DNA from: Mesorhizobium sp. AR02
Lineage (GTDB): Bacteria > Pseudomonadota > Alphaproteobacteria > Rhizobiales > Rhizobiaceae
Length of the DNA stretch: 64,000 bases
NCBI RefSeq assembly: GCF_024746835.1
Contig: NZ_CP080531.1
Location: forward strand, 3,472,001 to 3,536,000
Direction of reading: 5' to 3'
Shown here: one piece after another, positions 51,407 through 61,599 of the stretch
How positions within the stretch are numbered: position 1 is the first letter of the stretch
Layout of the letters: every line of letters begins with the position of its first letter
Made by a program: the position numbers and the translations under genes
The notes under the pieces: generated by a model
The model's database searches: none
What the model was told of the DNA's origin: nothing
Seen by the model: only the letters and a program-made list of their open reading frames with translations

Positions 51407-52783
51407 ATGCCGACCGAAGTCATTCTTCCCAAGGTCGACATGGACATGGCGACCGGACAGATCTCGCGTTGGTTCGCCGAGGAAGGCGCCCGGGTCAAGA
51501 AAGGCGATGTGCTGTTCGAGATCGAGACCGACAAGGCCGCGATGGAGATCGATGCGCCGGCCAGCGGCGTGCTGCGTGACGTGACCGGCAAGGAGGGCGT
51601 CGATATTCCAGTCGGCGCGCCTGTGGCCTGGATCTATGCCGATGGCGAGGCTTATGGGGCTGATGTCGCTGCGGTAAAGCAGGACGAAGCGCCAATCTCC
51701 CCACCCGTGGGGGAGATGTCGGCGAAGCCGACAGAGGGGGGCGCTGCCCCACCAACGTCGCACTCTGTCACGCCCCCCTCTGCCCTGCCGGGCATCTCCC
51801 CCACAAGGGGGGAGATCGGCCAATCGCCATCTGTTGCGCGCGCTACACCTTTGGCTCGCCGCCTGGCCCGTGAGGCCGGCCTTGCCCTCGCCAGCATCAC
51901 CGGCACCGGCCCGCATGGCCGTGTGGTAAAGGCGGATGTTGATGCGGCGATTGCCGGCGGCGGCGCCAAGGCGACGCCTGTCGCAAAGGCTGCACCTGCG
52001 GAGGCTCCCGCCGCCTCCCCGGCGGTGAAGCCGATGTCGGACGATCAGGTGCTGAAGCTGTTCGAGCAAGGCTCCTACGACCTCGTCCCGCACGACAATA
52101 TGCGCAAGACCATCGCGCGGCGCCTGGTCGAAGCCAAGACCACCATCCCGCATTTCTACCTGACGCTCGACTGCGAACTCGATGCGCTGCTGGCGCTGCG
52201 CACGCAGATCAATGCGGCAGCTCCCGTCAAGAAGACTGACAAGGGTGAGGCTCCCGCCTACAAGCTCTCCGTCAACGACATGGTGATCAAGGCGATGGCG
52301 ATGGCGCTGAAGGCGGTGCCGGATGCCAATGCCTCATGGACCGAAAGCGCCATGGTCAAGCACAAGCATGCCGATGTCGGCGTTGCCGTCTCGATCCCCG
52401 GCGGCCTGATCACGCCGATCATTCGGCATGCCGATGAAAAGACGCTGTCCACCATCTCCAACGAGATGAAGGATCTGGCCAGCCGCGCCCGCAGCCGCAA
52501 GCTGAAGCCGGAAGAGTACCAGGGCGGCACCACGGCGGTGTCGAACCTCGGCATGTTCGGCATCAAGGACTTTGCGGCGGTGATCAACCCGCCGCATGCG
52601 ACGATCCTGGCGGTTGGTGCCGGCGAAGAGCGGGCGGTGGTCAAGAATGGCGAGATCAAGATCGCGACCGTGATGTCGGTGACCCTGTCGACCGACCATC
52701 GCGCGGTTGATGGAGCACTCGGTGCCGAACTGCTGGTCGCCTTCAAGCGGCTGATCGAGAACCCGATGGGCATGCTGGTTTAA
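51407..52783 (+). CDS. 2-Oxoacid dehydrogenase E2 (dihydrolipoamide acyltransferase), linker enlarged by a repeat
   Basis: The 458-residue E2 has one lipoyl domain (about residues 1-80, lipoylated Lys43 in ETDKAAMEI). The E1/E3-binding domain lies at about 146-182 (ATPLARRLAREAGLALASI, then GRVVKADVDAAI). The catalytic domain at about 215-458 ends with STDHRAVDGALGAELL, which holds the active-site His and Asp. Between the first two domains a linker of about 42 residues (ISPPVGEMSAKPTEGG through ISPTRGEIG) is encoded by a palindromic DNA repeat, described separately. The frame is kept, so the protein is probably functional. Acyl chain specificity cannot be read. Confidence 0.92.
   Translation: MPTEVILPKVDMDMATGQISRWFAEEGARVKKGDVLFEIETDKAAMEIDAPASGVLRDVTGKEGVDIPVGAPVAWIYADGEAYGADVAAVKQDEAPISPPVGEMSAKPTEGGAAPPTSHSVTPPSALPGISPTRGEIGQSPSVARATPLARRLAREAGLALASITGTGPHGRVVKADVDAAIAGGGAKATPVAKAAPAEAPAASPAVKPMSDDQVLKLFEQGSYDLVPHDNMRKTIARRLVEAKTTIPHFYLTLDCELDALLALRTQINAAAPVKKTDKGEAPAYKLSVNDMVIKAMAMALKAVPDANASWTESAMVKHKHADVGVAVSIPGGLITPIIRHADEKTLSTISNEMKDLASRARSRKLKPEEYQGGTTAVSNLGMFGIKDFAAVINPPHATILAVGAGEERAVVKNGEIKIATVMSVTLSTDHRAVDGALGAELLVAFKRLIENPMGMLV
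51694..51817. repeat. Palindromic repeat element inside the E2 gene, in frame
   Basis: About 124 bases form nested inverted repeats. ATCTCCCC-x-GGGGGAGAT forms a hairpin at 51695-51717, and a matching one lies at 51794-51816. An inner pair AGAGGGGGGCG / CGCCCCCCTCT lies between them. The outer arms also pair with each other, so the whole element can fold as one long structure. Its base pattern is unlike the flanking codons and like intergenic repeats of rhizobia. It falls exactly in the flexible linker between the lipoyl and E3-binding domains and leaves the frame open. Confidence 0.85.
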
Positions 52784-58796: not shown

Positions 58797-58901
58797 TCTT
58801 CTGCGTGTGATCATTCAGATCACCAAGCTGTCAGCGGCCAAATTGCGCCAATCCAGTGCTTATGCTTGAAGCTGCCGCTATTTCATTCCACATCGGGCGC
58901 A

Positions 58902-60071
58902 ATGAACGGCAAGATACGAGAGTGGTTTCGCAATTGGCGATGGGCCTTGGCCGCATCGCTGATCCTGCATACCTTGATCGCAGCGTTCTTGTTCTTTGGC
59001 CTGCCGAGACCCGAGCAGCAGCCGGATGAGCAGGAACAGCCCGTCAATGTCGCGATCGTGCCGCCGCCCGAGAAACCTAAGCCGAAACCTGCTCCAAAGC
59101 CACCAGAGCCGACACCTGAAAAGAAGGCTGAAAAGCCGCCTGAACAAAAGCCGCCTCCTGAGCCGCCGAAACAGCCAGACGACCATGTTCTGAAGCGCGT
59201 CTTCCAGTACGGCGAGAAAGATACGGGGCCGGAGAAATCGCTCGACGGAAGCAGCGCTAAACCCAACACGCCATCGCCGGCCAAGGATGAGGCGGCGAAG
59301 CCGCCTATAACACCGACACCCGCGCCGACCCAGCCCGCCCCGGCTGCAACGCCACAGCAGAAGGCAGAGCCCAGCAAGCCTGACGACAAGCCGGCCACCG
59401 TTGCGCCGGACGAAAAACCCGCGCAAAGCGAGGAAAAGCAGGCGACCGATGACACCGACAAACAACAGCCGGACAAGCAGGAGCCGGCGTCGCAAACCGG
59501 CGAAAAACCAGCGGTCGTGGCGCCAAAGCCGTTGGCGGCTGAGACCGACAGCAAACCTGCGCCTCCGTCCTCGGCCGGAAAGGCAAAGCCTAAACCTGCA
59601 AAGACAATGACGTTCAAACCCGCGAGAGCCTTCAAAGCCCCAAGCGCGAACGCAGGAAGGTCAAATCCCACCAACAACGACGTTGCGGGGTCACCGATCT
59701 ATTCCGGCCTTCCGGGCGTCAGAAAGCTCTACTCGCAGGGGGCAACCGGCGATGCGTTCGCCACAAGCTCCATGGAGAACGTGCCGCGCGGTCAGCGCGT
59801 GGCCAATCTTTGTGGCAACGTTCTGAGCCAAGAATTGCAAAGTGCCGACTATACGATCAAATGGGTGCCAACCATTCAGCTGGACAGAGGCAATGTCCTC
59901 AATCCTCCGCTGGCCGCCTTCAGCACGAGAAACACGTGGTACAATCTGAACTTCCGGTGCGAGGTCGACGCCGACGCGACGAGGGTCCTGTCGTTCAACT
60001 TCCGTGTTGGGTCATTGATCCCGCCCGGCGAATGGGCCAGCCGAGGATTCACGAAGTATCCGCTAAATTAG
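58902..60071 (+). CDS. TonB-like proline-rich envelope protein with DUF930 C-terminal domain
   Basis: The 389-residue protein has a TonB-like layout. A short basic N-terminus is followed by one membrane span (about residues 12-32, ALAASLILHTLIAAFLFFGL). A long periplasmic Pro/Lys/Glu/Ala-rich stretch (about 38-245, PPPEKPKPKPAPKPPEPTPE) leads to a folded C-terminal domain (about 275-389). That domain has LCGNVLSQELQ, WYNLNFRCEVDADATRVLSF and a closing IPPGEW, which fits DUF930. It probably spans the periplasm, but the function is unknown. ATG 58902 is chosen; a TTG at 58866 would extend it by 12 residues. It is the intact member of a tandem pair. Confidence 0.82.
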   Translation: MNGKIREWFRNWRWALAASLILHTLIAAFLFFGLPRPEQQPDEQEQPVNVAIVPPPEKPKPKPAPKPPEPTPEKKAEKPPEQKPPPEPPKQPDDHVLKRVFQYGEKDTGPEKSLDGSSAKPNTPSPAKDEAAKPPITPTPAPTQPAPAATPQQKAEPSKPDDKPATVAPDEKPAQSEEKQATDDTDKQQPDKQEPASQTGEKPAVVAPKPLAAETDSKPAPPSSAGKAKPKPAKTMTFKPARAFKAPSANAGRSNPTNNDVAGSPIYSGLPGVRKLYSQGATGDAFATSSMENVPRGQRVANLCGNVLSQELQSADYTIKWVPTIQLDRGNVLNPPLAAFSTRNTWYNLNFRCEVDADATRVLSFNFRVGSLIPPGEWASRGFTKYPLN

Positions 60072-60217
60072 GCCGGCACGCCGAGCCGGGACAATTGCCG
60101 GCTAATACCATGCCAGTTGGAGCAGACGAAATCAGTACCAGCCGCCGTCAGCCGCGCGCCATGGCGTAGGTGTGGCTGCCGCCGATGTAGCCGTCATGCC
60201 GGAGGCAACCGCGCCCT
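60072..60217 (-). pseudogene. Remnant of the HAD hydrolase 3' end between the DUF930 copies
   Basis: About 145 bases after the first DUF930 gene align with 61442-61599, the 3' end of the HAD gene on the opposite strand. Shared stretches include GGCCGGCACGCCGAGC and CAGACGAAATC, and the match ends at CCGCGCCCT in both. The remnant has substitutions and gaps, encodes no useful product, and stops where the second unit begins. Confidence 0.8.
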
Positions 60218-60254
60218 TTGGTCGGGCTGCCCTGGTGGGGTGATCCAATTCAAC

Positions 60255-61599
60255 AAGCTGTCAGCAGCCAAATTGCGTCAATCCAGTGCTTATGCTTGAA
60301 GCCGACGCTATTTCATTCCACATCGACTGGGATGAAGGACGAGGCACGAGAACGGCGTCGGAATCTGTTGTGGGGCATCCCCGCATCGCTGATCCTGCAC
60401 GTGCTTGTCGCGGTGATCCTGATATATGGCCTGCCAATTCCTCCACAACAACCGCAAGAGGAACAGCCGGTCAATGTCGCGATCGTGCCTCCGCCCGATC
60501 AGCCGAAACCGAAACCTGCTCCCGTGCCGCCGCCAAAGCCACCGGAACCGAAAGTAGAAAAACCACCCGAGCCGAAAGTTGAAAAGCCGCCGCCGCCGGA
60601 AAATCAGGCGCAGAAGCTTCCGCCGGTCGAGGCCTTGAAGCCTGTCTTTCAGTTCGGCGACAAGGATACCGGCCCGAGGAAATCCCTGGATGGGGCGAGC
60701 GCTCAGGATAGCTCGCCGTCGCCGGCCAAGGATGACAAGCCGCCGGTTGAGCCTAAGCCTGCGGAGAACCAGCCCGCCACGCCGGCAGATCCGACCAAGG
60801 CCGACCAGAAGCCGGTAACCGCGACGGCGGACGCGAAGCCCACACAAAGTGATCAGAAGCAGACAACCCAGGACACGGATAAACAACAGGCAGCTAAACA
60901 AGAGGCAGAAAAGCAAGGGGTCGACGCTGCCAAGCAACAGGGCGCGGTACCAGAGCCTTTGGTTGCCGATGGCGGCGACGGCGAGATCGAGCTTCCCATG
61001 TCGGCCGTAACGCCGCAGCCCAAACCCGCAAAATGCGCCGAAGCCCAGCCCTTCAAAAGCCTCGAAGTCTGCATCTCGGAACGGTTCGGGCTTTCCGGGT
61101 GTTCGCAAGCTCTACTCGCAGGGCGCTACCGGCGATGCGCTGGCGACGACCTCGATGGGTGACCTACCTCGCGATCGACGTGTTGCGATGCTTTGCGCCA
61201 ACGTTTTGCAGCAGCAGTTGCTGGACGCCTCATATTTTCCTGACTTGGTACCAAATGTTCGGCTGAAGGCGGGCAATATTCTTGTCGCCCCGGACACCGC
61301 TTTCCGCGAAGGGAGAACCAGATGGTATCATGTGGGCTTCCGGTGCGAGGTCGATAGCGATGCAACGCGGGTCTTGTCCTTCGACTTCCGTGTCGGACCT
61401 GTGATCCCGCAGAACGAATGGGCCAGCCTTGGACTCTACTAGGCCGGCACGCCGAGCCCGGCCAATTGCCGGCAAACTTCTTGCCAGTCGGCGCAGACGA
61501 AATCGGCACCGGCCGCCGTCAGCCGTGCAGCGTGCTCGGCATAGGTATGGCCGCCGCCGGTGTAGCCGATCGCCGTCATGCCGGCGGCGACCGCGCCCT
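60255..61599. repeat. Tandem duplication, second unit
   Basis: This unit repeats the leader (AAGCTGTCAGCAGCCAAATT), a DUF930 gene and the convergent HAD 3' end. Here the HAD gene continues beyond the unit and is complete, so this looks like the original right-hand junction and the first unit the added copy. Confidence 0.8.
60332..61442 (+). pseudogene. Second TonB-like/DUF930 protein, frameshifted paralogue
   Basis: The first frame (ATG 60332) gives a membrane span (SLILHVLVAVILIYGLPI) and a Pro/Lys-rich periplasmic stretch to KPKPAK. Beyond about 61030 the paralogous sequence continues in another frame (GVRKLYSQGATGD, then LCANVLQQQLL and WYHVGFRCEVDSDATRVLSF), ending at 61442. Removing one A of the run at 61030-61033 joins the parts. 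Repaired length is about 369 residues, against 389 for copy one. The break may be real loss of a redundant copy or a homopolymer error. Its stop overlaps the convergent HAD gene by four bases. Confidence 0.8.

Follow-up and report, generated by a model that had tools for sequence, protein, structure and literature searches.

A segment of about 45 codons within a pyruvate dehydrogenase gene of Mesorhizobium sp. AR02 is very probably one copy of a family of palindromic Mesorhizobium elements of about 130 bp that is predicted to be read as protein. The gene lies in a window of 64,000 nucleotides, the whole stretch of DNA analysed (positions 3,472,001 to 3,536,000 of contig NZ_CP080531.1), to which coordinates below refer unless a contig is named. 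Judged from its sequence, and with translation assumed, the segment appears to be repeat DNA that has turned into protein-coding sequence and kept its DNA symmetry. The host gene (51407..52783, forward strand, as are all features given here) encodes 458 amino acids, and its predicted product is the dihydrolipoamide acetyltransferase (E2) of the pyruvate dehydrogenase complex, scoring 480.8 bits against NCBIfam model TIGR01349, above the curated cut-off of 445. Pfam placed a lipoyl domain at residues 4-75 (PF00364, Biotin_lipoyl; 51416..51631), an E3-binding or peripheral subunit-binding domain at residues 145-178 (PF02817; 51839..51940), and the catalytic acyltransferase domain at residues 224-457 (PF00198; 52076..52777). 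The gene sits in a genome of 8.9 Mb (G000), and its nearest named E2 relatives are from Mesorhizobium. A second E2 paralogue with 75% identity is encoded far from the window (G000:C2:6717039-6718409). Elsewhere in the window, at 58805-61528, two adjoining diverged copies of a stretch of about 1.4 kb share 72-85% identity across six blocks and probably arose by tandem duplication of a gene.

The element spans 51692..51826 (PISPPVGEMSAKPTEGG...PSALPGISPTRGEIGQS) and was delimited by inverted repeats, folding, and comparison with orthologues and across genes. It consists of a left outer hairpin (51695..51717, ATCTCCCC...GGGGAGAT, inverted repeat I17), a left inner hairpin (51718..51732, GTCGGC-GAA-GCCGAC) that encodes S-A-K-P-T and belongs to a variant seen only inside genes, a right inner hairpin (51781..51794, TGCCC-TGCC-GGGCA) that encodes A-L-P-G and is supported by Watson-Crick pairing in genic copies, and a right outer hairpin (51794..51816, ATCTCCCCCACAAGGGGGGAGAT) supported by inverted repeat I12 and pattern matches. 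The sequence-only reading, made before any comparison with other genomes, had described nested inverted repeats here, and this was borne out: outer arms of 28 nt each (51691-51718 and 51793-51820) are 86% complementary and enclose the inner hairpins, and the strand of 124 nt folds at -43.3 kcal/mol, compared with -24 ± 2.8 kcal/mol for shuffled sequences (z -6.97; none of 200 as good). Its placement of the repeats in frame between the lipoyl and E3-binding domains also agrees with the Pfam boundaries and with a reading frame (51407-52783) that is open across the whole element. The insert is in frame as proposed, but the length of about 42 residues given for it was too short, as 45 were counted (residues 96-140). 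With about 135 nt and terminal inverted repeats, as were also read in the DNA of GlyS copies, the element resembles Rickettsia palindromic elements (RPE, about 100-150 bp) in size and form and MITEs in its ends. A search of the region against Rfam returned four matches to microRNA precursors, all below threshold, of a kind that a long hairpin may give.

Other DNA copies of the repeat had been predicted, and 103 matches to a 131-base query of the element were found in its own genome. The first 60 or so cover mainly the right half, and the remainder, which are weaker, align chiefly with the left half on the opposite strand. Among 14 other copies in this genome that were read, 11 consist of a half, the core and the inverted half in that order, and two have one half only; one (L005) is arranged outward like the E2 copy, and its middle part is longer. 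The half-element repeats of this genome mostly look intergenic, judged from unannotated open reading frames. The left inner hairpin of the E2 copy occurs exactly once in the genome and is three bases longer than that of the abundant repeats, and because of this the E2 element appears from its sequence to be kin to the abundant repeat but a distinct hairpin variant, not a plain copy. No second convincing in-frame genic copy of the E2 form was found in the few places of this genome that were examined. A separate sequence, TGTCGGCGACCTCGACAGAGG, occurs ten times in the genome (G000:C2 and C4) and is perhaps another repeat or a mobile gene.

Across the genus, a frame-blind DNA pattern for the left hairpin detected 91 copies in 61 of 117 genomes, and the reversed control detected none. 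Seventy-three of these copies were read as loci, 17 were placed within E2 matches by coordinates only, and one was L328. Seventy-five distinct copies were classified, 74 of the 91 and one from a wider hairpin search. Sixty-nine lay in the sense orientation and shared the register of a host motif recognised on at least one flank (both flanks in 30; one in 39, because the motif list often covered one flank), and four were antisense within PcrA or XdhC reading frames. The remaining two had no motif assignment: one in a 5-oxoprolinase gene (L164) that loses its frame at the element, and one in a contig-end chimera (L247). None of these 75 copies, which carry the SAKP and STKS variants of the inner hairpin, looked intergenic. 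The SPKAT variant is commoner: with a search that also caught it, 123 of 146 genomes gave matches, one of them as many as 36, and most of the 22 SPKAT loci that were read look intergenic, judged from unannotated open reading frames, with one in UvrB and others antisense in GlyS. Across the order, a profile search matched 15 of 297 genomes and 6 of 122 genera; in another genus, the E2 paralogue of Aquibium microcysteis (P0016), known here from the protein only, carries the element peptide.

Ten sites were occupied according to the DNA pattern: two in E2 linkers (linker 1, and linker 2 in L168), one in the E2 paralogue, sites S1 and S3 of GlyS, one in GlyQ, sites A and B of 5-oxoprolinase, one in XdhC, and an antisense one in PcrA. 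A third GlyS site, S2, is occupied mostly by antisense copies of the SPKAT type. Three protein searches, which scored the element region only, extended the list: IleRS was added by the first (among the matches listed, 120 of 187), UvrB and an RluB-like enzyme by the second (all 52 matches), and the third gave GlyS only among the matches listed (120 of 278). A GNAT protein and a dipeptide ABC ATPase were reached through a profile search. In two of the hosts the element falls beyond the conserved domain: in UvrB, and at one end of the RluB-like protein. E2, GlyS, UvrB, XdhC, GlyQ and the dipeptide ABC ATPase scored above the cut-offs of their NCBIfam models; PcrA (757 of 911 bits) and a partial IleRS fell below, as did the 5-oxoprolinase host with every oxoprolinase-like model, and this host was named from Pfam domains and source names. 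The RluB-like enzyme reached 143 of the 290 bits of the RluB model and passed the broader TIGR00093. Identical left halves of 48 nt are shared by E2, GlyS and 5-oxoprolinase, and another by GlyQ, GlyS and 5-oxoprolinase.

The terminal arms encode ISPxxGEM...ISPxRGEI on either strand, and all ten sites found by DNA pattern are read in this type of register (ISPxxGEM or ISPxRGEI), whichever strand is used. In some copies another sequence has taken the place of the right end. The register was not imposed by the method for these ten sites and was given by it for the hosts found by peptide. In the register used, none of 110 genic copies contains a stop codon, partly by construction because host motifs were sought in that register, and stops occur in 22 to 49 of the 110 in the other registers. 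This comparison leaves out 22 copies in short open reading frames, which had been selected by short open frames. Two rows from G031 that are shifted by one base were kept in these counts and in the pairing counts of the left halves below.

In at least four of the 69 sense copies (L173, L175, L215, L216), the host frame does not continue on one side. The frame is broken at the element in GlyS of G100 (L173) and in E2b of G116 (L175), and is possibly broken in GlyS of G204, G116 and G093, where open frames are short. In G031, three genes each lose the frame at the element (L164, L215, L216), either through misassembly at runs of G and C or through genuine decay; sequencing error at G/C runs is a plausible source of frame breaks. 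Such breaks at G/C runs in some genomes, elements located at some contig ends, and the chimeric look of one of these (L247) could suggest that annotation or assembly created the pattern. But copies were seen in many genomes, both finished and draft, and public databases list these proteins from several sources; the chance of such an artefact is negligible, and for the family as a whole it is already refuted. Removal of the insert before the protein acts, through RNA splicing, ribosome bypassing or protein splicing, was also considered. The element forms a strong hairpin (the fold was computed for the E2 copy) and inserts occur in genes expected to be essential, such as glyS; yet the stop-free, in-register reading of most copies and the in-frame variation in length of E2 linkers among relatives both suggest translation, so that removal is highly improbable.

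Among E2 orthologues (E2a), the element was present in 43 of the 44 rows of one Mesorhizobium clade, 41 recognised by motif and two (L134 and L139) by eye, with the right half replaced or shortened in some copies; L065 has a repeat of another family there. The E2 protein of M. japonicum (P0052) also carries the element. As an alignment of orthologues had been expected to reveal, it is missing outside this clade in nine of ten rows, L052 being the only outside row to carry it. In the E2b paralogue it was present in 8 of 42 unique sequences and unrecognised in 34. Because the E2 copy is common to nearly the whole clade it is old, and it therefore provides no evidence of recent movement. The proposal that such repeats move and become protein sequence is thus better served by the patchy occupation of GlyS described below than by the E2 copy from which it was drawn. 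Relatives contain other repeat-like peptides in the same E2 linkers (PPDRPLAGHPPLEGEGK; SPSxGGGRAxGAGGGE...PHKGEG; SPLRGGVRGGG; in L048, L049, L051, L059, L064, L065, L076, L088, L101 and L102), and several repeat families therefore seem to use the E2 linker.

Divergence by codon position was compared between the element and the rest of the same E2a genes in 30 elements of equal length out of 34 matched by pattern. Mean pairwise divergence at first, second and third positions was 0.123, 0.099 and 0.167 in the element and 0.055, 0.034 and 0.257 in the core. Third positions diverged 1.50 times as much as the others in the element, and in the core no contiguous 42-codon window gave a ratio below 3.20; at the third position alone, the 95% range of the element (0.112-0.221) overlaps that of the core (0.193-0.323). 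The arms of the element (0.092, 0.074 and 0.119) were less diverged than its middle (0.202, 0.161 and 0.286). In GlyS, the arms had third-position divergence of 0.055-0.101, and two stretches of the core reached 0.30 and 0.364, a comparison across differing genome sets that is limited to third positions because the patterns used to pick the arms fix some residues.

Pairing within the hairpins points in the same direction. In 74 genic left halves, 93.7% of cells in the left outer hairpin were paired, and over all pairs 95.9% of cells were paired, compared with 94.0% in shuffled and 38-60% in slid alignments. The central pair of the left inner hairpin (31:37) was GC in 47, AU in 17, CG in 5, wobble in 3 and broken in 2 of these 74 halves, part of which had been fetched by a pattern that restricts this pair, and its covariation score was 0.083 compared with 0.041 when shuffled (0 of 500). 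No other pair among the 15 was seen to change on both sides, a tally of one against 1.1 in shuffles, and further pair types numbered 10 compared with 8.5 (18 of 500 shuffles). Judged by residue, the left pair is Watson-Crick in 40 of 42 recognised E2a copies, or 38 of 39 without three pattern-fetched rows, and the variable pair of the right inner hairpin is Watson-Crick in 59 of 63 genic copies and in all 79 of the others. Because the two sides of a hairpin pair change together, the protein changes reciprocally, between S-A-K-P-T, S-T-K-S-T and S-P-K-A-T on the left and between A-L-P-G and G-L-P-A on the right. In DNA, the sequence GCGAAGC folds into a mini-hairpin of unusual stability. Given the near-even divergence across codon positions and a hairpin pair that changes on both sides, conservation of the element's arms is stronger at the level of DNA than at that of protein.

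These results bear on whether selection favoured the residues as a useful flexible linker of E2, with the palindrome a by-product. The Pro-rich sequence suits an E2 linker, and its in-frame retention throughout nearly all of the E2a clade would be expected of a useful part. Against this, the same DNA occurs in unrelated genes, most E2b sequences have no recognised element, the codon-position pattern is not protein-like, and L065 has another repeat family in its place, all of which makes selection for a spacer improbable. Read as a repeat, the element in E2 extends a linker that was already flexible and is probably near neutral for the enzyme.

GlyS has three sites, each of which was found both empty and occupied among 51 Mesorhizobium proteins; 40 of these had been fetched across the genus and 11 chosen as element carriers, so the set is not a random sample. 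The empty sites read KCFVT|RPQGAGED|LSN, LAPIV|GADPAL|AR and DAVIT|PQS|DDLL. On a tree of the 51 rows, in which 19 of 48 forks are open, the occupied rows and the fewest changes needed to explain them were 8 and 8 at S1, 19 and 13 at S2, and 21 and 11 at S3. Relics and other repeat families were scored as occupied in this count, and L299, L300 and L304 were scored as empty at S2 despite an unrelated stretch of 21 residues there. Collapsed relics that keep the frame were found in four rows at S3, and L291, L305 and L310 contain other repeat families at these sites. By sequence mapping only, S1 lies between the residues aligned to 289 and 296 of 7yse chain C; a predicted structure of GlyS with three elements had a mean pLDDT of 38.5 and was not used. 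When empty and occupied junctions were compared by eye, host bases at the left edge were seen to change and no clear target-site duplication was found. In L273-L312, the stretch of GlyS from the 'ILVEN' helix to 'DLLAFFHDR' contains hypervariable, mutually unrelated inserts of about 5 to 100 residues, a puzzle separate from the palindromic elements.

Patchy occupancy could also have arisen from a few old insertions if homologous recombination of housekeeping genes between species, rather than transposition, spread the occupied alleles. The E2 copy is indeed old and spans the clade, many species are occupied at the same sites, and similarity between genomes was higher at the same site (median 0.887) than at different sites (0.839). 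However, about sixteen sites in ten gene families still require separate arrivals, the nearest neighbour of 17 of 52 elements is at a different site, and one GlyS site hosts different repeat families. As a full account such recombination is possible though doubtful; as a partial explanation of patchy occupancy, exchange of gene segments between species remains serious.

For the favoured explanation, a palindromic repeat family read as protein, the following course is proposed. Some activity, or recombination, would insert the element into genes; copies would persist where they fall in a loop or linker in the stop-free register, coding for a spacer rich in Pro, Gly, Ser and Glu; and a later process acting on the DNA would keep the sides of the hairpins complementary, candidates being correction templated by the hairpin, recombination between copies, or selection acting on the strand when folded. 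No transposase or other mover was identified for the element, and movement itself was not observed. Y1 transposases of the RAYT type were found in one of 19 Mesorhizobium genomes searched and not in the element's own, and being nearly absent from these genomes they are unlikely to mobilise it. Concerted evolution within genomes was tried as well and was not significant: among 52 elements, different-site copies of one genome had a similarity of 0.850, compared with 0.827 when permuted (85 of 1,000). More tentatively, the subfamily with the GTCGNC/GAA hairpin may be specialised to genes, coding only and in one register on either strand, with an active process that keeps its stems complementary and so changes residues reciprocally in unrelated proteins throughout the genus. 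If this rather speculative proposal is true, the subfamily would be a standing, self-maintaining supply of spacers that recurrently enters core enzymes.

Several known repeats invite comparison. RIME (rhizobial intergenic mosaic elements) are palindromic mosaic repeats of rhizobia; compared by description only, they share the palindromic form and the rhizobial hosts, but are known as intergenic. REP/RAYT systems are likewise short palindromic repeats in many copies, but the Y1 family is missing from the genome studied here and was seen in only one of the 19 searched. The intragenic enterobacterial repeat units RU-1/ERIC, RU-2 and RU-3 and Correia/NEMIS are described as small mobile repeats with open frames that form in-frame gene fusions (PMC2759123, PMC2229807). 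The Mesorhizobium element is, by those descriptions, another small open-frame repeat fused within genes, set apart by repeat names and hosts; some of the described fusions are at protein ends, whereas several of those in Mesorhizobium are inside conserved enzymes. The RPE and the Wolbachia palindromic elements (WPE) are described as short palindromes with terminal inverted repeats, located in conserved protein genes and intergenic regions, RPE being about 105-150 bp long (PMC2229807, PMC10969869, PMC3733652, PMC4224334). The same body of work reports in-frame palindromic repeats from Rickettsia, Wolbachia and enterobacteria and a Rickettsia guanylate kinase that is translated and active with such a repeat (PMC2229807, PMC10969869, PMC2759123, PMC3733652, PMC4224334). 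The element had been likened to the Rickettsia repeats from the outset, and the likeness, a short palindrome in frame within unrelated conserved protein genes, was strengthened by the in-frame relatives in about ten Mesorhizobium gene families and by the empty GlyS sites. It differs in that its host is a free-living soil genus, its hairpin variant is seen only in genes, its sites recur across species, and both its strands read the same terminal peptides, all as judged by description. A literature search, which left subscription journals largely outside, found no in-frame palindromic elements of Mesorhizobium. The family works like RPE and is best filed with them as a further form, marked by another lineage, a hairpin variant seen only in genes, ambidextrous ends and recurrent sites.

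Palindromes that code for protein in frame are best known from Rickettsia and Wolbachia, obligate intracellular bacteria for which relaxed selection explains them easily. That explanation loses force with these elements in free-living rhizobia, where they occur in pyruvate dehydrogenase, tRNA synthetases and enzymes of DNA repair. Rhizobia are genetically tractable and offer dozens of natural comparisons of empty and occupied sites, so that the conversion of mobile DNA into protein sequence, the cost to a core enzyme of an insert of 45 residues, and the reason for which DNA symmetry persists within coding sequence are now testable.
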